Positions 14,429 through 64,000 of a stretch of DNA of 64,000 nt are shown here, piece by piece (the first letter of the stretch is position 1; each line of letters starts with the position of its first letter). A program made the position numbers and the translations under genes. The stretch is from the NCBI RefSeq assembly GCF_024713945.1, contig NC_134678.1, positions 5,022,001 through 5,086,000 on the forward strand. Reading direction: 5' to 3'. The notes beneath the pieces are model-generated. The model saw only the letters and a list, made by a program, of their open reading frames with translations. It ran no database searches and had not been told where the DNA came from. The stretch comes from Dermatophagoides farinae. Taxonomy: Eukaryota; Arthropoda; Arachnida; Sarcoptiformes; Pyroglyphidae.

Positions 14429-14592
14429 TATTGATATAGTCTTCCACAATAATCAACATTTACGAATCATCTGAAGAGAAAAAGTCCATAGATCACGGCT
14501 TTATCATCTCACAACACCTGTTGGCAATTCTTTTTAACATTCTGTTTATTTGTTTGTTTTTTTTCTATTGAAAATAGAGATCAACTTTAATA

Positions 14593-15264
14593 ATGAAAAA
14601 ATCTCGCCGTTCTATTAAAAGAAAATCAATATCAGATGATCGACCATTACAAGATGAAATGGTTAAAATTGATGATTCTGATTCATCCAGTCAAGATGAT
14701 AATGATGTTGATGATAATGAATTATCCTTTACTGGTGTTGGTACGACAAAAAATGCATCATCTTTTCATTTGGATAAACAAATTAAACGTATTGAAAATA
14801 AACAAACATCCAATCCTATATTGAATCGATTAAATGAATGTTTGAAACGGATCCGGTTTTCAAATATTCGTTTAATACAGGGCGAAATGACAATAAAAAA
14901 TTCAACGATAAAAATGAAACTTAAAGTGATTAAAGATGTGATTAAAGAATTTGAACAATTTCTTATTGAAACTGAAGTCATTTGGCCATTAGATGATCAT
15001 CGAAACCTTGAATGTTTGCCATGTGATAAAGAAAAGAATATAATTTTAAATTATGGTGAAAAAATATTACTTGTATATGGTCAACAATTACCATATCCTG
15101 AATCAATGTTTAAATCCGGTACAATCATAGAACTTTATCCAGATTGGTTTGTACATCGATTCAACAATGGACGGCAATCCGTATCATCATCATCATCATC
15201 ATCATCATCTGAGATTAAATATTTTATTCTATCTGCTTTTAATGTATTGATAGTGGATGATTAA
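14593..15264 (+). CDS. 223-aa probable nuclear protein, possibly SPIDR-like
   Basis: A single uninterrupted ORF from ATG 14593 to TAA 15262-15264. An in-frame TAG at 14575-14577 just upstream fixes the start; the same AG could be a splice acceptor after a pyrimidine-rich tract. Residues 2-11 are strongly basic (K, R, S; a likely nuclear localisation signal). Residues 27-43 are an Asp/Ser-rich acidic patch. Residues 70-150 are mixed and partly helical. Residues about 158-223 read as a beta-rich module: G-E-K-I-L-L-V-Y, then F-K-S-G-T-I-I-E-L-Y-P-D-W, and a final hydrophobic strand ending in V-D-D. The order 'I-x-I-x-P-x-W, then a strand' resembles the OB-type region of SPIDR, a scaffold for homologous-recombination repair. 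That match is from memory and weak. A nine-serine run (198-206) coming from a TCA repeat sits inside the module. Animal SPIDR is far longer, so this would be a truncated or divergent relative. Confidence 0.75.
   Translation: MKKSRRSIKRKSISDDRPLQDEMVKIDDSDSSSQDDNDVDDNELSFTGVGTTKNASSFHLDKQIKRIENKQTSNPILNRLNECLKRIRFSNIRLIQGEMTIKNSTIKMKLKVIKDVIKEFEQFLIETEVIWPLDDHRNLECLPCDKEKNIILNYGEKILLVYGQQLPYPESMFKSGTIIELYPDWFVHRFNNGRQSVSSSSSSSSSEIKYFILSAFNVLIVDD
15181..15211 (+). repeat. (TCA)n repeat inside the 223-aa coding frame
   Basis: Eight TCA codons plus TCT code for Ser198-Ser206. The same ATC/TCA repeat class is common in the surrounding noncoding DNA. Its presence in frame shows that the class has entered a coding region without breaking it. 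Confidence 0.9.
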
Positions 15265-24309: not shown

Positions 24310-26145
24310 ATATTGTTGTATGGAAGCGAGAAAAGAAGAGAAAAAAAAATTTCATTTTTTGATCATGACATGATGAACAGTAGACAAGTATTTTTGAAAA
24401 AAAAGAAAATTTTTCACAATAATGAAAAAAAAAATTGTTTTTTTTTGTTTTGGAATTTTTCGACACATCTTAGTAAAGGAAAGTTTCCCGCAAAAAAAAA
24501 ACATTTCATTTTGACATTTATGAATTTTTTTATGTAAATCGAGTCACACACACACACGAAACAATGGTGAAGAAATAATAATTTGATTAACTTCTGGTAG
24601 CTGAAAACGGAATGGATTTCGGAACATGTGTATATTAATTGATTGACAGATCTCAATTTGAAATGAGGAAAATGTGAAATGGAAAAAATTTTATCAAATC
24701 ATAATGACCATCAACCATATCATATTGATCATAATAATGATAATCCGAACAAAAAAATCGATTGATCATTGAACTTTATTATCGAAAAAAATCATACATC
24801 ATGAAAAATCAAATCGAATGACCATCAATGTGTAAGATATCAAATAAATGTATTTTTTTTTCATCTTCATCTTCTAATAATCATTCTTATTCTTGAATAG
24901 GAAATCCAATTGTTCATCTAAAATCGGAATATCATACAAATGTCTATCCAATGTCCATTTTGTCTCTTGTGTTTCATCGTCTTTTCTTAGCTATTTTTTT
25001 TTCTTCTAATACAAAGATTTCAATTTGTATGCATATATACTATACTTGATAATCAACATAATCATCATCATCATCGGATAAATCGCATAAAATCTTTACG
25101 AACTTATCAACAACATCGTCACCATGAGAATATAATCTTTAACGGTTCATCATCATCATCATCGTCATCATTATCAATGGGCTAATAATGAATCCGTTTA
25201 AAGTTCTATTATTATTATCAACGAGATGTAAAAAAAAACTTGAAACCGAATGAAATAAAACGTTTTTTTTTTGCTTTATCTATCATTTTTTTTCGTTATT
25301 ATATTTCAAGATCATCAAGGTTATTGGTCATCGAGATGATGATTATTATTATGACTACCATGAGTGAGGATTAATGTAATTATATTTCATATATATAGTT
25401 TTTTTTTGAATGGAATGGATCAACACAAATATAAATGAATGAATAAAGAAGAATAGAATGAAAAAAAAATTGAATTCGAGCATTACCGAAGAAGAAGATT
25501 AGAGCCATCTTCATCATCATCATCAAGAGTTGATGAAATGATGAAAGAGTGACTGATGAAATGAAATTGAAGAAGAAAAAAAATCTTCGATCTTATTTTG
25601 TTGTTGTTGTTGTTGTTTTGTTTTCATTCATCCATCAAGATATGTATTTTCTTTTTCTTGTTTATATTATGTGTGTGTGTATGTATGTTTGTGTTCCAAA
25701 TGTTATAATCGTCTTTGCAATAGATTTTTGTGACGTTTGTTTTTGTTTCTGATCACCACTCGGAATGAAAACAACGTTAATTCAAACTAGCATTATTTTT
25801 TTTTTGTTTTGTTTAATGTCAATAAAAACCTTTTGAAATTTGTAACAATTGATAAAATTTTTAAAATAGAGTGATTACAATTGCATTACAATATATATAA
25901 TTATTAATACTAAAAAAAAGTCAAACAAAAAAAGATTTATGACATTATTAATGGTGTGTGGTGTATAACAGGATCATTATTGTACCATTTTTTTTCTATA
26001 TCCAATTTATGGAACATTTAATTCCATGACAACCATTTTTTACGTACTTGTTTATCGACAGTTGGGACAAGTCTGAAGTATTCATCAACATTACAATCCA
26101 ATATGGCATGACAATATTGTTTGTTGATATGACAGAAAAAAAAGA

Positions 26146-26153
26146 TATTTAAA
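26146..26153 (+). promoter_or_regulatory. TATA box of the acid phosphatase gene
   Basis: TATTTAAA has its first T 32 bases before the A of TCAGA (A at 26178), an arthropod-type initiator. The spacing is canonical for a focused promoter. Transcription from 26178 would give a 52-base leader before ATG 26230. Confidence 0.5.
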
Positions 26154-26175
26154 TGCCAGTAAAAAAAACCATAAT

Positions 26176-26180
26176 TCAGA
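26176..26180 (+). promoter_or_regulatory. Initiator-like element (TCAGA)
   Basis: Matches the arthropod TCAKT/TCAG-type initiator in four of five positions, and lies at the proper distance from the TATA box. Confidence 0.4.
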
Positions 26181-26229
26181 TCATTTGTCCAAATTGTATA
26201 TCGTCTTCACTATCATCAATAAAGAAAAA

Positions 26230-27420
26230 ATGTTAAAATTATTTTTTACATCATTTTTTTTATCATTCCCGTTAATAATTGTCGATTGTTCATTAGTTTT
26301 AAATTCCGTTTCTATCATTCTTCGACATGGTGATCGTAATCCATTATATATCTATCCAAATGATCCGTACGATGAAACTTATTGGAAACAACAAGGTGGT
26401 GTAGGTACTATGACCGAACAAGGTAAAAATCGGATAAAAATTGCCGCAAAATTTTATCGTCAACATTATGAAATGTTATTGCAAGAAAGCGATGGAACCA
26501 ATTATCAAGTTATAACATCAACAGTTGATCGTGCCATCGAAACGGCCAATATATTTATGAAAGAAATCAATAAAAATGCAACATTTCAACGTAATAATAA
26601 CATGTTATTTATGTATGCGAAATGTGATAAAGCTACAAAACTTCGAGATGATCGATTGAATGAAATAGCAACAGAATTATTGCCAAATAATACTTTTATT
26701 GATTTTCTTCGCAACAAAACTGGTGATGAATTTACTGATGAAGATACGGTAAAAAAAATACGACTATTGTTTGATTTAGCAGATACGTTAAAAATTGAAC
26801 GAGATCAGTTAAAATTGAACGTATCCGATTGGATTACTGATAAAGAAACTGTTAAAACTATGTCCGAAACGGAGCGAAAAATTTTCGCAAAAATGTCAAA
26901 TACTCCAGAAATTCAACGTTTACGTGTTGGACTTTTATTGAAAGATATTCGTGATCAAATGGCAAAGAATTCAAGTCAACGATTCTATCTATATTCAACA
27001 CATGATTTTAATCAAGCTGTATTGTTACAAGCATTGGATATGTATGATCGATTGGACAAAATTAATCAAATGCCACCAACATACGTTAGCAGTGTTGTAT
27101 TTGAAGTTTTTCACAATGAAACCAATGAACAAGAGAAATGGATCCGTTTTATTTATCGACAATTCTTGGATGTTAATGGTACAATAATGAATTTAGATGA
27201 AAAAATTCTACCTGAAAAATGTCAAAATGAATTTGAATTTCATGATGGAACAGTTTTAAATACGGGAAAATTCTGCAGTTGGCAACAATTCACAGATGAA
27301 TTATTGAAAAATTTAATACCAGACAATTGGGATAAAGAATGCCAAAATAGTTCGTTTGCCAACAAACCAATGTGGATAACATTGATGATATTCATTACCA
27401 TATTGATAAGCAATTTTTGA
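26230..27420 (+). CDS. Secreted histidine acid phosphatase (lysosomal/prostatic type)
   Basis: This enzyme family hydrolyses phosphate monoesters at acid pH through a phospho-histidine intermediate, in lysosomes or outside the cell. The single exon codes for 396 residues, the usual length. The frame is open back to a TTG at 26185, but the first ATG is 26230, which gives a proper signal peptide (residues 1 to about 20, mostly L, F, I). The catalytic motif R-H-G-D-R-N-P is at 32-38 (nucleophile H33), and the second motif T-H-D at 257-259 supplies the other catalytic histidine and the acid D259. Four C-terminal cysteines lie in the pattern of the family's disulfides, including F-C-S-W-Q-Q-F. Eight N-glycosylation sequons support secretion or lysosomal targeting. 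Residues 381-396 are a hydrophobic tail ending at the stop, which suggests a membrane anchor or a GPI signal. No intron is needed. Mites carry many such genes; which family member this is cannot be told. Confidence 0.93.
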   Translation: MLKLFFTSFFLSFPLIIVDCSLVLNSVSIILRHGDRNPLYIYPNDPYDETYWKQQGGVGTMTEQGKNRIKIAAKFYRQHYEMLLQESDGTNYQVITSTVDRAIETANIFMKEINKNATFQRNNNMLFMYAKCDKATKLRDDRLNEIATELLPNNTFIDFLRNKTGDEFTDEDTVKKIRLLFDLADTLKIERDQLKLNVSDWITDKETVKTMSETERKIFAKMSNTPEIQRLRVGLLLKDIRDQMAKNSSQRFYLYSTHDFNQAVLLQALDMYDRLDKINQMPPTYVSSVVFEVFHNETNEQEKWIRFIYRQFLDVNGTIMNLDEKILPEKCQNEFEFHDGTVLNTGKFCSWQQFTDELLKNLIPDNWDKECQNSSFANKPMWITLMIFITILISNF

Positions 27421-50190: not shown

Positions 50191-50198
50191 TATATAAA
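50191..50198 (+). promoter_or_regulatory. TATA-like box next to the nuclear-receptor start
   Basis: TATATAAA lies only 19 bases before ATG 50210, so transcription from it (about 50220) would start after that ATG and leave the ATGs at 50225 or 50249 as starts. It may be only AT-rich leader. It is listed because the last of these ATGs is where the fly Knirps protein begins. Confidence 0.2.
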
Positions 50199-50209
50199 AT
50201 ATAAAATAG

Positions 50210-50326
50210 ATGAAACCAACATCTATGAATGAAACCGATCGTCTTATCATGAATCAATTGTGTAAAGTTTGCGGTGAACCTGCCGCCGGTTATCATTTTG
50301 GTGCATTCACCTGTGAAGGATGTAAG
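50210..50326 (+). CDS. First coding exon of a knirps-family nuclear receptor (partial)
   Basis: The exon codes for 39 residues, from ATG 50210 (after an in-frame TAG) to K39, and ends in AAG|GTAAGT, a perfect donor, in phase 0. Residues 18-38 are the complete first zinc finger of a nuclear-receptor DNA-binding domain, with zinc ligands C18, C21, C35 and C38 in the C-x2-C-x13-C-x2-C spacing, ending in the P-box start C-E-G-C-K that sets half-site choice. The signature G-E-P-A-A-G-x-H-F-G-A-F-T is that of the knirps/knirps-like/eagle group (NR0A). Most receptors instead have G-D-x-A-S-G-x-H-Y-G. Group members are DNA-binding repressors without a normal ligand-binding domain, acting in segmentation, trachea and neuron fate. 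Three ATGs are in frame (50210, 50225, 50249); the third gives M-N-Q-x-C, like the fly protein's own start. The second finger is not in the window. A nearby related receptor class cannot be fully excluded from one finger. Confidence 0.88.
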
Positions 50327-51292
50327 GTAAGTGTTTTTGAATTTAATTTTTATTATTATTATTGTTTTGTGATTTTATTCCGTTTATATTATATTTGTTT
50401 TTTTGCCAGACTAAATTTCGTATTTAAATCGGATTTTTTTTTCTAAAAAACCTTTTCAATTACGAAAGTGTGTCTGTCACGCTCCTTTATTTATTTCGAA
50501 TTTTTTTTTGAAGATAAATCTAACAGGTGCTACCTCACTTGGATGAATCGATATTATCTTAGCATTTGTATAGTTGTCACTTTAAGAATTTGTTTTTCTG
50601 TATTTTGTAGATTATTTTCTTTTTCATTTCAATTTTTCAACACATTCATCTGTTAGGCTTTTTTAGATAAATATTAAAAAAACGAGGATAATGATTAATA
50701 AGTTGAATTTGAAATGAAAAAAAAAACAAAAAAAAATTGATTTCAAATCCTCAAATAAAATTTGTGTCATAAATCATTTTTCGATATCGTTATTGTTTTT
50801 TTTGTGGTTTGGGTGTATTTCTATGATCTCGATTTCAATGATGATGAAGGCGATTACCGGCTTGAAATATGAAATTATTCAAAAGAAATGGCAAACTTTG
50901 ATTATTATTTAAACAAAATTTGTGAAACAAACAAAACTTTGGCAATCGATCAATAATATAATATATAAGTCAAAATTGAATATTTGAAAATGATTTTTGA
51001 TATATCAAAAAGGATAGGTTTGTCATTGTTTTTGTTCATTGTAGCTTAGCTGTTATATTTATTTGTTTATTTTTCCTTTACATACCTGTATCAAATTCAT
51101 TCAAGGTTTAAATAAATCTTGGTAAATCTTGATTGAATCAATGATGATGATGATGATGATTTCTAGTTGTTGTGATGCACCAACCACAATACTAATCACG
51201 ATTGTTGTTGGTGGTGGTGGTTTGTTTTTCGTACTGTGTAATAATAATCTAGGTATATTTTTTTTTTTGATAATTGATTAATTGTATATCTG

Positions 51293-51607
51293 ATGATCGA
51301 GAAAAAAAATGAATTGAAAGAATGGGAGCGAATCACCTTTTTTTCCTCTCTCTTTCTTGACCAATTGGTCAGCAAACCAACCAGTAATCAAATAAATCAA
51401 TATAAGAAGATTTCATTTGTTTTTTTTTGTTTTGTTTTTGTTTTGTTGCCTTGTCTATTCATGTATGATGGAGATGATCATCATATTTCAATGCAAATTA
51501 TTAATCATTTCATTCGAATCATATCATATTATATTTGGTCCATCTCTACACTAACATGTCTAAAAATTCGATCATTTCTCATAGTAACAACAACAGGAGC
51601 AAAATAG
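51293..51607 (+). CDS. Doubtful 104-aa ORF inside the receptor intron
   Basis: I do not recognise it. The ATG at 51293 opens a frame with a charged N-terminus (E, K, R, W within the first 13 residues), a strongly hydrophobic segment at about residues 40-57 (F, V, L) and a mixed C-terminal part with W and Y. It could be a one-pass membrane peptide. It is largely free of microsatellite-derived runs, which sets it apart from most long frames here. About one or two frames this long are expected by chance in the window. There is no TATA box or polyadenylation signal at convincing spacing. Confidence 0.18.
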   Translation: MIEKKNELKEWERITFFSSLFLDQLVSKPTSNQINQYKKISFVFFCFVFVLLPCLFMYDGDDHHISMQIINHFIRIISYYIWSISTLTCLKIRSFLIVTTTGAK

Positions 51608-53337
51608 ATAACATAATCTAGATCAATTTATCAAATTTGTCTATGGTTGTTGTATTAATTTTTCGATCGCTTGTTATTTTGTCTTGTCATTTGGATTAAT
51701 TTTTTCTTTTCCTATTCCTGTGATGCCTGTTGTTGAACTTTCAATTATAAATTATATATTTCTAGTGGTTAATAATGATCCTGTGGATGAATTTTCCTGT
51801 TTGTACTTCAATCGTCTTCATCTATTTTTTTTTTGACCATTGTGTCTGTCATATCTGGACAGACATTCTAATGTATTTGTTTTTGTTTGATCCAATTTTA
51901 AGGGTTTTTGTATTCAATTGTTGTTTCTTGTTATTATAATTTTAATTGTAATTACTATATGTTAATTACTACAATAGAAAAAAAACTCGTGATTAAATGA
52001 GATGGATTTCAATTAATTCATTCAATCATATCATCATATGAATATTCAAATGTTTTTTTTTCTTGTTCGTATAGCATTAATTGGTTTGTTATGTGTCAAA
52101 TCATTTCATGAGAATAATTTTTTTTCCTATACAAACAAAGATAATAAATGCCGATGCAATAACATTCAATTGGTATTGTTTTTACATCAAATACCATCAA
52201 TTGTTATGGATTGACTTGAATTTTTTTTTTTGGAGTGATTTTGTTGTCGTCGTTCTAATTTATATATACAAATATCGAATGTTGTTGTTGTTTTTTGTTG
52301 ATGATGTTGATAATGTTTATTATCCCTGAAACATATATAGCCATAGTATTCACAATTGAATTCCATAGAGATACATTTTTGTGTGTGTGTGTTCCATGTC
52401 TAATCTGGTTCATCATTTTGGTGACACACATCCTTTTTTTTTTGTAACTAATTTTGTTAATATTATAATCATTCTTTTTTTTCATATACTGTACGTGTGA
52501 TCGTTATGGTGGCTTTACCATGAGGAACACACACATACACACACAGACACATAAAATTCCAATAGATTCCAACAGCCTAGATACCAAAATCTGTTCATCC
52601 TATTTTAATGGGAAAAAATGAGAATAATACAATTTATATGTTTCTATTTATGAATAGTGTCTGATGAATTCGTGATTTAGATTAATTGATGCTGATTATC
52701 ATATTTTGTGTGTATGTGTGTGTCGCTGTGTGTCGTACATAACTCGATCATTGCATAAAATCATAACAACCATATACATACAACCTGTTGAATTTAATAT
52801 CCATAATATGGTTATTTTCATTATTATTGATTTGTTTTACAGTTCCGGTATTTTCCTATCTATCATCTTTATTGTCATTCTTAATTTTACACTAGGCTGA
52901 ATAAGAATTTTTTTATTTTGAATAATGATAATAGTTTCAACAAGAAAAAAAAATCCAAAATCAATTTGATTGATTTGTTTGTCATTCAATCAATCATCAC
53001 TATATTGTGTTATTGAATTTATCAATAAATTGTATTGGATTACACAAAAGCGAGCCGAAGAGATTAATATTTGGAAAAAAATAATTTCATTTTCAATTAT
53101 TGGATAAACTTTTTTTTTCGTTGTTTAGACAACAACAACAACAACAACGAATTTTCTACGAACAATAGTCTAATGTTGAGAAAAAAAAGATTAGATGAAA
53201 ATCAAAATTGAATTTACGAATTTTCATCTTCTCTCTATCTCTCTTGATTAGGAATAGTTTCTGTATATGGAATGTACGTAAATAAATAAATATAGACAAA
53301 ATATCACTAATCGTCATCACGATTTAACCTTGATTTG

Positions 53338-53362
53338 TCATCATCATCATCATCATCATCAT
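53338..53362. repeat. (TCA)8 trinucleotide array
   Basis: Eight TCA units, then a CAAA tetranucleotide run at about 53368-53382. Confidence 0.9.
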
Positions 53363-56300
53363 TCAACAAACAAACAAACAAACATCCATAGTGCACACGC
53401 ACATATATCATCAAATACAATGATTTTTTTTTTTTGCAGATAGACAATCCATAATCATGTATGGATGTTGATGGATAAAAGAAAATGATTTTTCGATTTC
53501 TACATTTTCCCCTTTCACCATCACTATTTCATCTCATTTCATAGTAAATGATTAGAAATCCACTTGAAATTCAATTGATGTTCAGTTGTTCATTGTCATT
53601 ATTAATAATTTATTTTTCCCTCTCACTTTTTCCACATTATTATTCTTATTATTGATTTAGTTTTTGTACCTGTAATGCTCACAAAGCGATTGCGATTCCT
53701 TAGTTTGTTTTTTTTATTAGTTGATTTTTACCTGATTAAATGCACCACTGAAAAAATTCAATTTACCTACAAAATCGAAAGTTTTTCCTCAGACACAATG
53801 CTAAGCTAAACTTTTACCTCTGAGTTTGATCTCATTCTTCTCCTCATATATTCAGTGTTGCGCTCAATTACCTCCTGATTTTGAATTTTATTTTTCTGCT
53901 ATGATTCTTTTCGAGGTCTCAAATGACTTTAGGATTAATTTTCATTTAAATTCTATAATTCGGGCAATGACAAAAGACACACATACACAAAGGAAAAAAA
54001 ATAAAGTCGGCAGGTATGCAATTTTGTTCTTTTACATTTGTTTTAATTTTTTTTCCGTATATCAATGTTTGTTTAGGCTAGTTTTTAATAAAAAAAAATG
54101 TACTCAAGGTTGCCACGATTCAAGCTAGGCTTATTTTCATAACATTAGGGATTTTGTCCATACAGTTTCTATTGTCTTTTTCGTATTGTTGCTATTTAGG
54201 GTATCATCATCATTGTTGACCATTGTCACAATATTTTTTCTACCGCTGTTGTTTTCTTTTAATCGTCTTAAATATGAATTTTTGTTGCTGAAAGCGAGAC
54301 TTTTTTTAATATTCTTTCATTTACTAGAAGAACAAAGTTTTAAATTTTAGTTCATTTTTTCTATGACATTGATCATCATTATCATTTTAAATTGATCTAG
54401 ATGATTATGATCATCCATATATGATTCATTCATATTTTTCTTTCAAAAAATCATAGCCAATCTATTTTTTGCCCGCTCTTCCTTGATAGTGATAATTGAT
54501 TTATTAAATGATTATGGATTTTCTGGTGTATTTTATTCGAATGTTCCAATTATTTTCAGCTAAATTCAGTTCATGTCATATTTTATCTTATAAAGCTTTT
54601 TTTTCACCTGAGAGATATTTGGATCAGAACATGTGAAGGGAAGGGAAAAAAATGACGATGATTATAATGTTATGGTCATTATCATCTTAATTTTTTTTAG
54701 CATTCAACTTAATGTAAATGTGATAAGTATGATGATGATTATCATTATTTTGTAATCTTTTCTATACAATCTACATTTGCTTTCTCTGTATAGTGATAAT
54801 TTGTTGATAATTTTCATCATCATCATCATATGGTAAAATTTATTGTATGAAGAAAAAAAGGAGCAAAATAAAAAACGATGAATCTATGATTGATTTGAAT
54901 TTGTTTCCGTTTTGAATTATGTTATGAATTTTTTCGATGAGCATTTTTTTTATTTAAATGAAAAATGTGACCTTTAATAAATGATATTAAGATATGTTAT
55001 TTTTTCTATGGTACATCCATAATTTTTGTGACATTCAAAGATTCTGGTTTTTTTATAACGAAGAAGAAAATCAAGAAAAATCTTAAATAACCAACAGGTG
55101 ATGCTTAGCAACTGGTTTGTTCACAAAAAAAATGTTTCAAATTCATTTCATTCATTCCAAACAAATAAAATAATAATCATATCGTATCATTTAGCATCTA
55201 TTTTGTTTCTATTATACAACAGCATTGAATATATTGTTATATATTATTTTACAATCCTTTTGCGTGTCATCATGAGCTTATTATTTCTTCTTTTTTTTCG
55301 AGCAGCTTTATGTATGCTAATTTGTTGCTTTCATTTTTTTTCCACTGATTTTATGATTTGTTAAAATGCTTTATATTTTACGGCCATTTCTTTTCATCAA
55401 TCTGCTACCATATCATCATCATGCTATCATTTGCTGTTGTTGTTGAGCACATTTGTTTTTTGATTGTTTTTTTTTGTTGATTATCGCTACTACTGTTGGC
55501 TATTGGATTTTTATTCCATTTTTTTTTTATTTTGCAATTGCATTTTCATGTCATTATTATTTTGATTTTTTTTTCGCTCTTTTTTTTGTAGCATCTGATC
55601 ATCGGCTTTCCTAATTTTTTTTTTGAATACAAAAATAAAAAATATCACCTAGTTAATAAAATATAAAAATAATTGTATCGCCGGGATTGTCTTCTTCATT
55701 TTTGTTTTCATCAAATTTTTAAAGCTGAAGCAATTTCATTGTCTAACTGCTAGACTTTTGCATTTTATTGAAGCAAAAAAAAGGCAAAATCGCACCCATC
55801 ATTTCATTTAAATAGCTTTATTATTATTATCATCATCATCATCATTTCAAACTTTTTGAATATTCAAACACAATATATACTAATCCTATGCAACAGAAAA
55901 AAAGAGTTTCATTTTCTGTTGTTTGTTTTTCATTTAAGGTTGTCTTTTTTATGTAAGAAAACGTATACAGTCTATTTAATTGCCATCATTCGATAAAAAC
56001 AACAAAAAAAAATTCAGCCCTAAATATCGGATGGATTTTGAAACAATTTTTTTTCTGGACAAAATGAGCCTAATTGTTTTTCACCACTTCATAACATGGA
56101 AAAATTTTAATAGAAATAATAATTGTTCAACACTTGACACTTGATGATGATGTGTGTGTATATTAGAACAAAAATGATGAAGGCTAGAATATTGAAATTG
56201 ATTTTTTTTCTTTGATGCGCTAATTGACCAAAAAAAAACTGTTTCACTTTGTTTTTACCTGTTTTCGATGATTCTTTTCAACACACACACACATAACATC

Positions 56301-57107
56301 AAAGACAAATATCTCCATTAAGATCAATAATAATAATATAATAATGGATCAACTTGGAAAAAAAAGAACTCTTGACATTCTTATCTAAATATTACGTAAA
56401 TATAAAATGGTGGCCTTGTTGTTGTTGTTGTTTTTTTTTTTGCTTTTGGTTTTTACATGACGATCGATGATCCACTTAATTTTCTGTTTTTTTTTGCATC
56501 GATTTTCTTAAAAACTTTTTTTTGTGGTTTCAAGAAAAAATTATTGTCGATTGTTTTAGCTGAAATGATGGATGAGTGTAGAAAAAAAAATTTCAAGCTA
56601 CCTGATTGATGTCTGACATGTGAAGATTTTTATGTTTTCTGATTCACATATTGATTTATATCTTATCAACAACAACAACAACAAAAAACCGTTGATGATT
56701 TGACTGAAATAGTTTAATTCAATGATGAGAAATCTTAATTGTTTTTTTTTTTTTTGCTGAAAAATTTCCACATAATAAATGGATCCATTTATTTTATTAT
56801 TTCCACTAGTGTTAATTGTGATTATTTAGTATTGATAATTTTGTCTGTTGGCTAAGTGTGTGTGTGTAGACAGTTTCAAAACAAAACAAAAATGAAAGAA
56901 AATGAACCACTCCAATTTCCACGATATATATTTATGACATCTTCATCGTTATCATTCCAAATGTATGTTTTTATTTTATATGAAATTCAGAACAGAACAG
57001 AAAAAAAAATCTGATTCATTCCAATTTCATAATTATATTAACACTTTTATTTCTAAATAAAAATGAACAAATGAAAAATGTCATCATCATATCATAAGAT
57101 ATATAAC

Positions 57108-57133
57108 TGTGTGTGTGTGTGTGTGTGTGTGTG
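57108..57133. repeat. (TG)13 microsatellite
   Basis: An uninterrupted TG run of about 26 bases in the receptor intron. Confidence 0.9.
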
Positions 57134-57413
57134 GTTTTCTTGGCAGTAATTTGTTGCATCTTATGCTAATAATAATGGTGAGAATTTTTGTCTTTTCTCT
57201 CTTAATTTTGTCGATCTATTTCACTCTAGAAACATTTTTATATATAAAAACATAACGAAATTATGAACACATTGTATATATACATACATGTGTACACATA
57301 ACCGCAAAAGAAATTCTAGTTGATTTCACATCTTTGATAGTGTGAATTGAATCTCTCAACAGAAAAAAAACAAATGATCCATTCTGTGATTATGATATTA
57401 TTATTATTATTTT

Positions 57414-57440
57414 CAACAACAACAACAACAACAACAACAA
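57414..57440. repeat. (CAA)9 trinucleotide array
   Basis: Nine CAA units after an ATT-rich patch; in one + frame they read as a Thr run. Confidence 0.9.
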
Positions 57441-60400
57441 TTAATTTAAATGATAATGATAATGTGATTAATAGTAATAATGTAATAAAATTCAAAAAAA
57501 AACTGTATCTAATCTATGTGTCATCTTTCCATCATCATCATCAACAAGAACAAAAAAAAAAGACCAAACAGAATGTATGTATGTATGAAGAGTGTTGTCA
57601 ATTCCCATGTGAATGTCTCAGAACAAAAAAAAAAGAAAAAAGAATTTATTTCATCATTATCATTATGTCGTTTTTTTTCTCTTTCTCTATGTGTCTACAT
57701 TTACTAGATTTTAGGTTTAGGTTTTATTTCGTTTTTTTGAATTTTAATAGAGAAAGCAATCTTGCGGTTTTCATCATCAATCCCCACCAAACACTCGTGG
57801 GTACATGCAAATTATCTTATGAAATAATATTTTTTGCATTTGTTACTTAAGGTTGACCCATTATCGATGTTTTCGTTGCTATATTTAATAATGATACCAA
57901 AGATCGACAATGGAATTCTTTTCCAATGAATAGCTGCTTTTTCTTCTCTCATTACCAGATTGCTTCAATCGATTTTTTACTTTACAGTCAGTCGTTGTTA
58001 CAATTTTTTTACGAAATTTTTTTTTGCTCTGTTGTCTTGCCTCATCAATTTCCTCTACGCATCTTTAATGCATAAATGAACAAATCAAGGATAAAATAAA
58101 GAAAAGAACTTTATTTTACCAATGAAATCGGCATTTCCATAAATGTTTTTTAACGATGAAAATTGATGCACGTGTGCGTGTGTGTGTGTGTTATACTTTT
58201 TTTCATTTTATTTTGACTGAATTTGGATTTATTCGACATGTCAATTGTGTGTGTATGTGTGTGTGTGTGTGTGTTTATGTTTTTCTCTCTTACTAAAAAC
58301 GCTGAAAGGATTCAGCTTCTGAGATTTTTTTTTCGTTTTCATCTCCATTTTTATTTTTATTTATTACAATGATTACCTTTCGTTTTTGTTTTTTTTTCAA
58401 TTATTTATGTTCCATTTGGAACGAAAAATCCATTGTTTTTCCTCAACATAATCATAATTTCATTTTTATAATTTATATTTGAACAAAAATGGTATGATGA
58501 TGATCCAGATGTTTTGTTTTTGTTTGTTTATTTCGACGAAAAGGTGTTTTCATCACACCAATTGAATAGTGAGAAAAAAATGATGATTATGATGATGATG
58601 ATGATGGTAAACCGCATCATTATTATTACTATTACCAGAAGCTTATTTGTGGTTTTGAAAATCCACATTTGATCCTAAATCCAATGATCACATTTTCCGA
58701 TTCATTCCGAATGAATGGAACACATTCTCTCTCTCTTTTGACTTTTGTTTGTTTTTTGTTTTTTTATGATTTATGTGCTTTGTTGATTTTCATTTTAATT
58801 CTTTTTTTTTCACTTTTTTTTGTTTTTATTCATACAACACTAAATTACTGTAATGAATGGAAATAAAATGAATGTAGATTATGTTTTTTTTTGTTGTTGT
58901 GTGCATATTATTTTGAATGATTTTTGAGCCTTTTTTGATTTAAATTGTTTTCACTCTCAACCTATCTCTTTGTGTTTGATGAATGTAGGCGACATATATT
59001 TACGATGGCGTACATTGTATTTCATCATCATCATCATCATGATTTAATTCATTTGGATCTTCATTCATGATGTTAATGTGTAATAATAATAATAATAATC
59101 ATGAATGCAAATATGCGCTGTCCTTTTTGTTGTTGTTGGTTTCGGTAATTGTTATGGCTGGTTTAATTCACATCAAACAAACATAAATCAGGTTGTGACA
59201 TTATTATGGTTGATCCATATGTGGTGTTTGGTTATGTTGTCCTTGGATATTTATTGTCATTTACCGAATCTTATGATGTTTTTTTTATTAGCTGGAAATG
59301 AAATCAAGATTGTTACATTGTTAAAATGAGAAAAAAAATTTTTTTATTCAATTAGGACTTTTGATGATAATTTCTATTTTGAGTGTCATCGTACGATTAG
59401 TTTAAAAATCAATTTTTCTTGTTACTTTTGAAAATGCATCACATTAACCTGATTGATTTTTTTTATATTATGATTCAAAAAGTGGTTAACGTTGTTACTT
59501 TTTTTTGCAATGAATTAAGGTGAATCTTTTTTTTTCTTTCATTCATTTATTGGAATCTATTATCATTATGGTTATTGCTCGATTAATATTCATGAAATGT
59601 ACACTTATGGGATGGAAGTAAGTGGAAAAAATCTGAAATCATTATGTGATCTTTGTTTTGTTGTTGTTTTTTTTTTGCTACGGTTAGTTATAAAAGGGTT
59701 TAGATCATCATCATTAGAAAAAAAACGATGAAATCTGATTTACCTGGCCATAAACTAAGCCATTCTATTTTGCGTTTTGTAATATACTCGCACACGACTT
59801 GAATTATATCGAGTAAAACATTTTGATCTCATCATCATCGTTTATGGTTTTCTATGTAGAAATTAATATATTATGCATAGATTTTGCTTTTCATCAGAAA
59901 GTTTTTAATTATTCTGATATGATCTAGTTTTTTCTAGATTCGTACATCATCACATTTCTTATTTTATCATATCGTACACATATTTCTACCACAAATTTTT
60001 AGTTGATGAGATCTTCATTTTCTAGCATTTATTCGTTATTTTCATCTTTATGATTATCAAGTTGTCTGTCTGTGATATTATTTTACCATAAATCGTCCAC
60101 TTATCAAACCTGTGTTAATGTTTGTGTTTTGCATTTAATCATGAAACATTTTTTTCTGGATCATCATTCATCTTCATCTCATCAACGATTTTGACAACTT
60201 ATTGATGTAATATTTAAATTTCTATTACACTGTTGGCCATTGAAAATTGATTATAAATTTTTTTTTCTTTCAAAGAAGAAAGAATCGTATTAATGAAAAC
60301 TTTAATTTGGAATTTTTCCTTGAAAAATTCTTATTTAATTTAATCGTTTAAATTTTAATTATCAGTTTCATTTTCATTTGTGTTTCATCATATTTTGACA

Positions 60401-61621
60401 CTTCAGACAGATCAGGAAAAAAATATCAGGTCTAAATATGGTTCGGATAAAGCTTGCACTATGCACGTGTGTGTGTGTGTCTTGCCATATGAAATAATGT
60501 AAAATGGTATTAATGATGATGATGATCCTTGGATGTTGTGTTGTTTTGTTCATAATTTGACATTATCAATTGTCACGAAATACATAGGTCAAACAAAACT
60601 TTATATCCTGGAAGTATAATATTTTCTTCACACCTGAAATGGTAATTGTAAGTCTATATGGTTATTTCTGTTTTCTGTTTGTTTAAGTAAATATTACGGT
60701 GGCCTTTATTCTTGTTTTTCCTCGTTTTTATAATCCACTTATTTTTTTCCAGAATGATTTGGAGAGAAAAAAAAGACAATATGTGGCCACGTCTGTCATC
60801 TAATTTTTTTTTGTTTTTGTTTTTATTTGAAAATTAAATTTTTTTGTTTCTTGGATCCAATTCATCATGATCATTGTTTATTGTTTTTTTTCTTTGATCA
60901 TCTGTTATGGGGAATCAAATACGATACGTGTGTGTGTGTGTGCGTGTGTGCATGTAATGACGATAATGATCTTCTTAAACATCCATCATTGTTGAATGTT
61001 TGAAAACATTTGCAAAAATCTACATTGATGATCTTATTTGATTTAATTTCAAATTTTCAATTTTTTTATTATTATTATTTGGACTGTCAAATTCATCTTT
61101 AGTTTATCATTGAAAAAAAATCTTGATTGCGATTAAATTATAATGATGATGATGATGATGATATCAATACACAATACGTTTGGACAATAATAATAATTCA
61201 TTTAACACCGTAACAAAAGATGAAATTGATTGCCCAAAATATTTTAATTTTTTTATTTTTATTTTGATTGATTAATTTCCGTTAATAAACGGAAGTATTA
61301 TCAATGATTGAATGTATGTATTGGCAAATTAATCGGTAATCGAAATGTCGGAAATGATTTATTATTTATTATTATTGTTGATTCACTTATGACTTTTTTT
61401 TTGTTGTTGTTGTTTTGTTTTGTTCTGATCATCACCTTTCAGTATTCTGTCTCATGATTTGATTCGGCTCAGTATATCACAACTTGTGTATTTGTGCCTG
61501 CATGATGGTGGTAGAAATATAAATATCCATTCATAAGGAAGAACTGAGGGGATGGGGGGAAAGCAAATTTTCTTTCATATATAAGAAGGTGTTCATCACA
61601 TGTGGTAGTGTTTAATAGTGC

Positions 61622-61645
61622 TGATGATGATGATGATGATGATGA
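61622..61645. repeat. (TGA)8 trinucleotide array
   Basis: Eight units of the TGA/ATG class. Confidence 0.9.
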
Positions 61646-62456
61646 CATGTTGATTTCAATTTAATTATTCGTTTGTTTTTTTTTCTTTGTTGATTATTAT
61701 TATCATCATCATCATCATTGTTTGTGTTTGGGCGCTTGTCATTATTTAATGATTTTTTTTTGTACAAAACAGATCTCCAAATTTGCTGATTTATGGAATA
61801 TAACGTTCTTGTTTTGGAATGAGTTTTTTTGTTGTTGTTGTTGTTGTTGTTCCACTACATATATTTTCTTCTACCTGTTTAATTCATTGTTTCAATGGCA
61901 CCCATGTGTATATTTTTTTCTGTCTATTGATTTGAATCTGTTTTCTGTCTAGGTAGAAAAAAAAATTTGAATTTGAATTTGAATATATATGTGTCAAATT
62001 GGAAATGTAACAGATCTTTTTTGATGACATGAATTGTGTTGTGTTTGTGTTTGTGAAGAGACAAAATCATATATATATTCATTATAATTTGATTTCATTT
62101 GTTTATTCGTTCGTTGAAATGAAATAGGAGATACATTTTTTTTGTGTGTGTATTTAGATCAAAAATAAAAAATGAAAATGAAATGAAAAAGAAAAAGAAA
62201 AAAGAGGTTGACATGGAATTGCGTGTTGTGTGTTTGTGTGCCATCTTTAATTTTTCCATTTGAAATGTCCAAATAACATGATGATGATGATGATGAATTT
62301 TCCATTCATTCATGTTCTCAAGGTAATCTTTTTCTTTCGCTTTTTTTCAAATTTTTTTTTTCGTTTATAATTTTCTCAAGATTTTTTTTCGTTCTTTTCT
62401 GGATCACAATATTTTCATCAAGTAATCAATGTTGTATATTCGACGATAGCTGATCA

Positions 62457-62476
62457 TGATGATGATGATGATGATG
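62457..62476. repeat. (ATG)n trinucleotide array
   Basis: About six to seven ATG units. Confidence 0.85.
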
Positions 62477-63087
62477 GCTTCTGTGCGTGCCCATCTGTTT
62501 GTTGTATGATTAATTCCAAAACTTTAAAAAAAAATGAAAAAAGAAAAAACTTTTCATTTCACTCGTCATATTTATCGTTGTTAAGATTTATTATTATTAT
62601 TTTTTTTTATTTAAAATTATTGTTGATCTGATCACCAACTAGTGAAATAAATGACAAATACACTTGCATAGAAATTGTCAAATTTTATTTCAATGTGTTA
62701 TAATCTGAATTTTGATTTTTCAAGGTTGATTTTTTTCTTTCATGAATGAAAGATATTTAAATTTAAAAATTTTGATAATTATGCTATGTGTACATGTGTT
62801 TATTTATTTATTTTTTTTTAATTACTCTACATCATGTAAATCCATTCAATTTATAGACATTTCATTTATCCGGACAACTGTTGTTATTATTGTTGTTGTT
62901 GTTGTCGTTTACGGATTATCATTTTTAGTAAATAAAAGTAAAAATTTCTCATAAGGAAACCGATAACTTGTCATATTGTTATTATTATTACTGCCCAGGT
63001 CATATCTTAATCTATCTTTCATATATACAGTATAATTACTTTTGCTTGGAGATTTTTTTTTTCTTGAAAAATTAAAATCATTTTAAA

Positions 63088-63112
63088 ACAACAACAACAA
63101 CAACAACAACAG
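63088..63112. repeat. (CAA)8 trinucleotide array
   Basis: About eight CAA units within an A-rich patch. Confidence 0.9.
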
Positions 63113-63433
63113 AAAAAAGGAAGAGACTTTTGTTTGTTTAATGTAAAAAGTGAATAGAATAACCTTGCGCTATTTATATGTTAAAAAATTATAAAACGTG
63201 ATTATCACGTGTTTTTTTTCTGTTTTGTCCACTACACGTGTTTTTTTTAAGCTAAATTATAAAAAAAAATTTATCAAATCTACAGTGAAGTCTAATATAG
63301 TGGATTAGGATTTTTTTCTTGTTTGTTTAATTTGTTCTTTAGTTATCCTTGATTTAGATTGTTTCATACTCTGTTTACTTTTTATCATCATCATGATATA
63401 TTTAAATCATTTACTTTGAATGTATTTTATTTC

Positions 63434-63458
63434 AAAAAAAAAAAAAAAAAAAAAAAAA
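63434..63458. repeat. A25 homopolymer
   Basis: Twenty-five A in a row, the longest homopolymer in the window. I see no retroposed gene in front of it. Confidence 0.9.
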
Positions 63459-64000
63459 TTAAAACTGTGTATTTATGTGTTCGGTGTGTAGGTAGAAAAA
63501 GGAAGCATTCAATGACTATGATCTAATTGTTTATTTATGAAGGTAGGAAACAAAACCAGACACACATAGACTGGAATAAAAAATGTCGACATTGTCGAAT
63601 AAAATGATCCATATTGTCACAACACTTATTATGGCCATACATTATAAATAGGAATTCTTCACGACGATGATGATGATAATATCCATTATTTCGACATGAT
63701 AATTTTTCAAAATATTTTCATTGTGACATTCTCATGAATGAAAAAGAATGATTTAGTTTTTTTTTTGATTCATTATATGAAATCATTATTATTGTCATCA
63801 TGGACATATCGAAAATGATCAATAGGCCACACACACACGTACATACTTGTTGCTGACCATCTCTCTCTCTATCGCTCTCCCTCTCATTTGGATTGTAATC
63901 ATCATCATCATCATAAAATAACATTAACTACTGAAACAAGTAATATTTATGTGTGTGTGTGTGTTTGTGCATACATTTGTATGTATGTATAACAAGGTTC

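Follow-up and report, generated by a model that had tools for sequence, protein, structure and literature searches.

A nuclear-receptor exon of the mite Dermatophagoides farinae that encodes one complete zinc finger and then stops raises the question of whether it belongs to an intact gene and, if so, where the remainder of that gene lies. The exon is found at 50210..50326 (+) of the 64,000-nucleotide stretch of DNA analysed here (the window; G000:C2:5022001-5086000, contig coordinates being window coordinates + 5022000). The first-pass annotation had taken it for the first-finger exon of a knirps-type receptor, followed by a very long first intron, and had seen no second finger in the 13.7 kb that come after it. 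We conclude with high confidence that this exon opens the coding sequence of a D. farinae knirps-family (NR0A) gene, a judgement which takes in the repressor mechanism and the regulatory introns proposed below. The gene is ordinary in kind and unusually stretched out.

The first coding exon and the gene model

The 117 bases of exon 1 translate into 39 residues, namely the N-terminus and a complete first C4 zinc finger placed at the very end. Residues 16-39 align to positions 1-24 of the 70-position Pfam profile zf-C4 with an E value of 3.5e-09, scoring 37.4 bits where the cut-off is 21.1, and a PDB search with the exon returned nuclear receptors in all of the best 60 of 89 rows, with E values down to 1e-07. 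Given these scores, the first-finger match is not a chance one. The 3' border reads TGT AAG|GTAAGT, a perfect donor in phase 0 (GTAAGT at 50327..50332, +), so that the exon indeed stops directly after the finger, as had been claimed.

The exon holds three candidate start codons. The upstream ATGs at 50210 and 50225 have T at -3, and the third (50249..50251, +; residue 14, opening MNQLCKVC) has A at -3, the best context of the three. Since it is also in register with the start of Drosophila Knirps (MNQ), translation probably begins mainly at 50249. The string TATATAAA at window positions 50191-50198, which ends 12 bases 5' of the ATG at 50210 and 51 bases 5' of that at 50249, could be a TATA box for the 50249 start, although strings of this type are common at 27% GC. 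An in-frame TAG (50207..50209, +) directly precedes the first ATG, so coding sequence can extend further 5' only through another exon that is joined downstream of the TAG. The mite gene may have such an additional 5' exon; a further 5' exon has been described for some insect knirps genes (PMC9632033).

The search for the remainder covered the genome (62,435,336 bases in 22 contigs). In keeping with D. farinae, a group-2 allergen gene on contig C1 agrees with solved Der f 2 at 119 of 120 residues and scores lower against Der p 2, while another group-2 candidate is a distant paralogue; the published D. farinae assembly has Der f 2 on chromosome 1 (PMC11074847). The PF00105 profile matched 52 places, 48 of them over the cut-off; as a control, the same search gave a signal in 1 of 14 other named genomes, and there under the cut-off. 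One match, on the strand of exon 1 and starting 31.2 kb 3' of it, corresponds to finger 2. The exon carrying it (exon 2; G000:C2:5103536-5103680, +) lies outside the window and itself ends in a donor. A knirps-box query located exon 3 (G000:C2:5110841-5112447, +), which is preceded by an acceptor (...TTTCTAG) and contains the knirps box in a long frame open to a stop codon. With sizes of 117, 145 and 1,607 bases, the three exons join in phase 0 and then in phase 1 to give 622 codons plus a stop. Intron 1 thus measures 31,209 bp (13,674 bp of it in the window, 50327..64000, +; its end is at G000:C2:5103535) and intron 2 measures 7,160 bp, so that exons 2 and 3 lie about 31 and 38.5 thousand bases 3' of exon 1. 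From ATG to stop, the coding span is 40,238 bp in three exons, and the region contains 0 N. A six-frame pattern search over 164 kb (the window and ten 10-kb stretches) returned a single match for each of the two fingers, that for the second being in exon 2. The very long first intron and the lack of a second finger in the 13.7 kb that follow exon 1 therefore both held up, and extending the search beyond the window, as the first-pass annotation had suggested, yielded the second finger and the knirps box on the same strand, in order, in frame and with proper splice sites.

Family membership and proposed mode of action

In the 622-residue model, zf-C4 is the only Pfam family matched at E <= 1 (PF00105, residues 16-86, profile 1-70 of 70, 95.2 bits); no ligand-binding domain (LBD) is detected at this threshold. 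The DNA-binding domain (DBD) is adjoined C-terminally by a kni-box, GSRYGRRSNWFKIHCLIQD, which shares 17 of 19 residues with the fly box. The C-terminal tail is long and of low complexity (Asn/Ser-rich, with Ala and Gln runs), and holds PIDLS at residues 392-396 and PLDLT at 445-449; the pattern P.DL[ST] thus occurs twice in the model, against 0.024 occurrences expected by composition. The mite DBD is identical to that of Drosophila Knirps at 55 of 71 positions (77%), whereas its identity to ten other receptors read from the mite's own genome is 37-50%. The former value is in keeping with family membership for a mite, given that bee and fly NR0A DBDs have been reported to be 82-91% identical to each other (PMC1847479). 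A 94-residue core together with PIDLS has been described as common to the knirps family (PMC9632033), and the 19-residue kni-box and a missing LBD as marks of NR0A (PMC2774871).

The best PDB rows are FXR, EcR, VDR and others. None of them is named as knirps-type (among the best 60 of 89 and the best 60 of 88 rows), so their rank bears neither way on NR0A membership. NCBIfam has no family for the first 117 residues. A collection of genome contigs scanned for relatives gave 20 matching stretches, 0 of them confirmed, and a collection of viral contigs gave 2 matches, 0 of them confirmed, as expected, since neither collects animal genomes. Judged by its sequence marks (the two-finger DBD, the kni-box, the PIDLS motif and an LBD not found), the mite gene is a member of the knirps family, and the knirps-type reading of exon 1 in the first-pass annotation is borne out by these features of the full model. 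It is probably the sole knirps-family gene of the D. farinae genome: the knirps-box query, a consensus, had at least one genome match, the single one recovered being 90% identical.

As for function, the two fingers and the knirps box would bind DNA, and PIDLS would recruit the co-repressor CtBP, as Drosophila Knirps is reported to do through PMDLS (PMC9890238); the outcome would be a hormone-independent developmental repressor. DNA binding coupled to CtBP-dependent repression is the most likely mode of action, because PIDLS lies in a long low-complexity tail and no LBD was found. The long introns, for their part, would most likely hold regulatory sequence (enhancers) retained around a developmental gene.

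Intron 1 and its surroundings

That a long intron splits the DBD had been presented as notable. The length indeed stands out, and the split itself is less unusual than this suggests. In three other D. farinae genes, presumably E75-, E78- and HNF4-like (labels given by motif), the between-finger intron likewise follows C-[ED]-G-C-K in phase 0, so that at least four receptor genes of this genome, the knirps-type gene included, share the codon and phase of the between-finger intron, at lengths from 65 bp to 31 kb. Calculated by hand from coordinates, this intron is 2,925 bp long in the E75-like, 1,950 bp in the E78-like and 65 bp in the HNF4-like gene. In an EcR-like gene the intron, of 68 bp, sits one base further on, and several other D. 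farinae receptors carry both fingers within one exon. The position of intron 1 is thus ordinary, and what stands out within the measured set is its length, 31 kb versus 65-2,925 bp in three genes. A contrast drawn earlier with intron-free genes elsewhere in the window is weak, as one clear single-exon gene and one possible open reading frame (ORF) are too few to sustain it.

We looked for an occupant of intron 1 that could account for its length. A codon-usage scan (ORFs >= 40 residues; trained on 36 ORFs; intron 1 itself as background; threshold 22 bits) flagged no ORF at or above 22 bits in introns 1 and 2; exons 1 and 2 were themselves not flagged, so short nested exons may escape the scan too. 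A repeat search covering 23,674 of the 31,209 bp of intron 1, in pieces of 13,674 and 10,000 bp (common words skipped; 39 candidates scored out of 114 and out of 97, respectively), found no long repeat, matches elsewhere in the genome being at most 152 bp long. The tandem repeats of the in-window part comprise 12 rows, with a longest array of 68 bp. Neither the window nor three 10-kb stretches (L029-L031) contained an Rfam match, and ARAGORN, run with the bacterial code, detected no tRNA genes in the window. A nested gene, a repeat or an RNA gene as the source of the length was therefore not found by the codon scan, the repeat search of 23,674 bp or Rfam.

The surroundings are gene-poor as well. 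From window position 27,420 to exon 3, exons 1 and 2 included, no ORF reaches the codon-scan threshold; this stretch takes in roughly 23 kb 5' of exon 1 (window 27420-50210) as well as both introns. It is likely to represent a regulatory landscape around a developmental gene. By comparison, the genome of D. farinae is compact, with 10,709 predicted genes (PMC11074847), or about one per 5.8 kb. The stretch is bounded upstream by a single-exon gene of the histidine acid phosphatase type (window 26128-27420, +; PF00328, profile 2-353 of 354), whose product, as judged by eye, starts with a signal peptide and is hydrophobic at its C-terminus. A 228-residue ORF at window 14578-15264 (+) is possibly coding; it scores 26.9 bits in the codon scan, in which antisense shadow frames reached 22-55 bits, and has no Pfam match better than E 0.17. 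A Pfam scan of 100 of the 200 filtered window ORFs (>= 60 residues) returned the phosphatase, zf-C4 and five further matches with E values of 9e-05 to 0.0083 and one member each, the best being to a taste-receptor family; these five are provisionally taken as chance matches on hydrophobic AT-rich frames. Outside the window, the upstream neighbour (G000:C2:5014839-5016164, +; L037) encodes, over three separate coding stretches, a nucleotidyl transferase whose C-terminal domain is of the GMPPB type. Downstream, tail to tail with the knirps-type gene, lies a gene encoding half-a-TPR-like repeats followed by RNA-binding motifs (G000:C2, about 5114130-5116550, -; L031:8129-10000), which, from a reading of its translation, is SART3-like. 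Further on, a single open frame of 3,655 residues with LDL-receptor-like cysteine repeats, recognized by eye, forms a very large uninterrupted exon (G000:C2:5121482-5132446, +).

Splicing of exon 1 to exon 2 across the 31-kb intron is predicted from sequence. This, together with the distance between the two exons, leaves room for a reading in which exon 1 would be an orphan, or the decayed remnant of a receptor, while finger 2 and the knirps box would belong to another gene with a first exon of its own. We consider this highly improbable. Exon 1 is intact and ends in a perfect donor, and all three exons follow one another on a single strand, their phases agreeing. In the genome, exon 1 has its only close match at its own locus (the next best of 14 matches being 64% over 25 residues), the next best of 20 matches to finger 2 is 44% over 48 residues, and the knirps box had its one match. 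An orphan fragment or a pseudogene is accordingly rejected, intact partner exons having been found in frame.

Two other alternatives accept the gene as modelled and differ on what intron 1 does. One would place an extra promoter within it, giving rise to an isoform without finger 1 that would bind DNA poorly and keep the repression tail, similar in outline to E75B, which lacks one finger. An intron that is long, in phase 0 and exactly between the fingers would suit this arrangement, and E75B has been called dominant negative (PMC3388334); however, the codon scan shows no alternative first exon, and we regard such an isoform as unlikely. According to the other, intron length would serve as a timer: as with Drosophila knrl, early cell cycles would be too fast for the whole gene to be transcribed. 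The mite gene's coding span of 40.2 kb exceeds the 23-kb knrl unit, for which length sensitivity has been reported (PMC8998493, PMC4895327), but intron length may equally be neutral or enhancer-driven. This second alternative is doubtful, if somewhat less so than the isoform. A delay of expression as in fly knrl is thus a possible additional effect, by analogy, of introns whose most likely role is regulatory.

Comparison with known knirps-family genes

A long knirps-type transcription unit is already known from Drosophila knrl. Its introns total 19 kb, and it is reported not to be finished in the early short cycles, whereas the 3-kb kni is (PMC4895327, PMC8998493, PMC3388334). In a delay of the knrl type, the long unit blocks early expression, and the block is relieved by an intron-less copy. 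The ancestor has been proposed to be long, with fly kni shortened under fast development (PMC4895327). Alongside fly units of 3 kb (kni) and 23 kb (knrl) (PMC8998493), the mite coding span of 40.2 kb is longer than either. In its finger sequence, knirps box, P.DLS motif and LBD not found, the mite gene resembles Drosophila knirps and knirps-related (NR0A1/NR0A2), but the fly is reported to have three knirps-family genes (PMC1847479), against one knirps box found in the mite. Eagle (NR0A3) is an LBD-less receptor of the same group; its GASS motif has been described as confined to Eagle (PMC9632033), and in a plain string comparison the letters GASS are absent from the mite model. The E75-, E78- and HNF4-like receptors of D. 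farinae share the intron codon and phase with the knirps-type gene, and their DBDs are 47-50% identical to its own.

The NR0A group was first known from insects alone and later from Daphnia (PMC2774871). Daphnia pulex KNR-R1 and KNR-R2 are non-insect NR0A genes that likewise possess a kni-box and lack an LBD (PMC2774871), although there are two of them, compared with the one knirps box found in the mite. For the related D. pteronyssinus, 31 nuclear-receptor genes have been reported, and the word knirps is absent from the main text of that report (PMC12105342); the set may include a counterpart of the D. farinae gene. A gene whose DBD is split over 31 kb would, we infer, be easily missed or broken by automatic annotation. 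No paper on Dermatophagoides and knirps was found in a search outside of which most subscription papers fall, and the gene is not thereby shown to be undescribed. The D. farinae knirps-type gene belongs to a known family, in which a mite member was to be expected. It adds a chelicerate case and, with it, an outgroup for the long-ancestor proposal. On a less probable reading, the single, very long knirps-family unit of the mite would be an ancestral one in which the 31-kb between-finger intron times expression; if this is true, the compact fly kni is derived, in line with the proposal made from flies.
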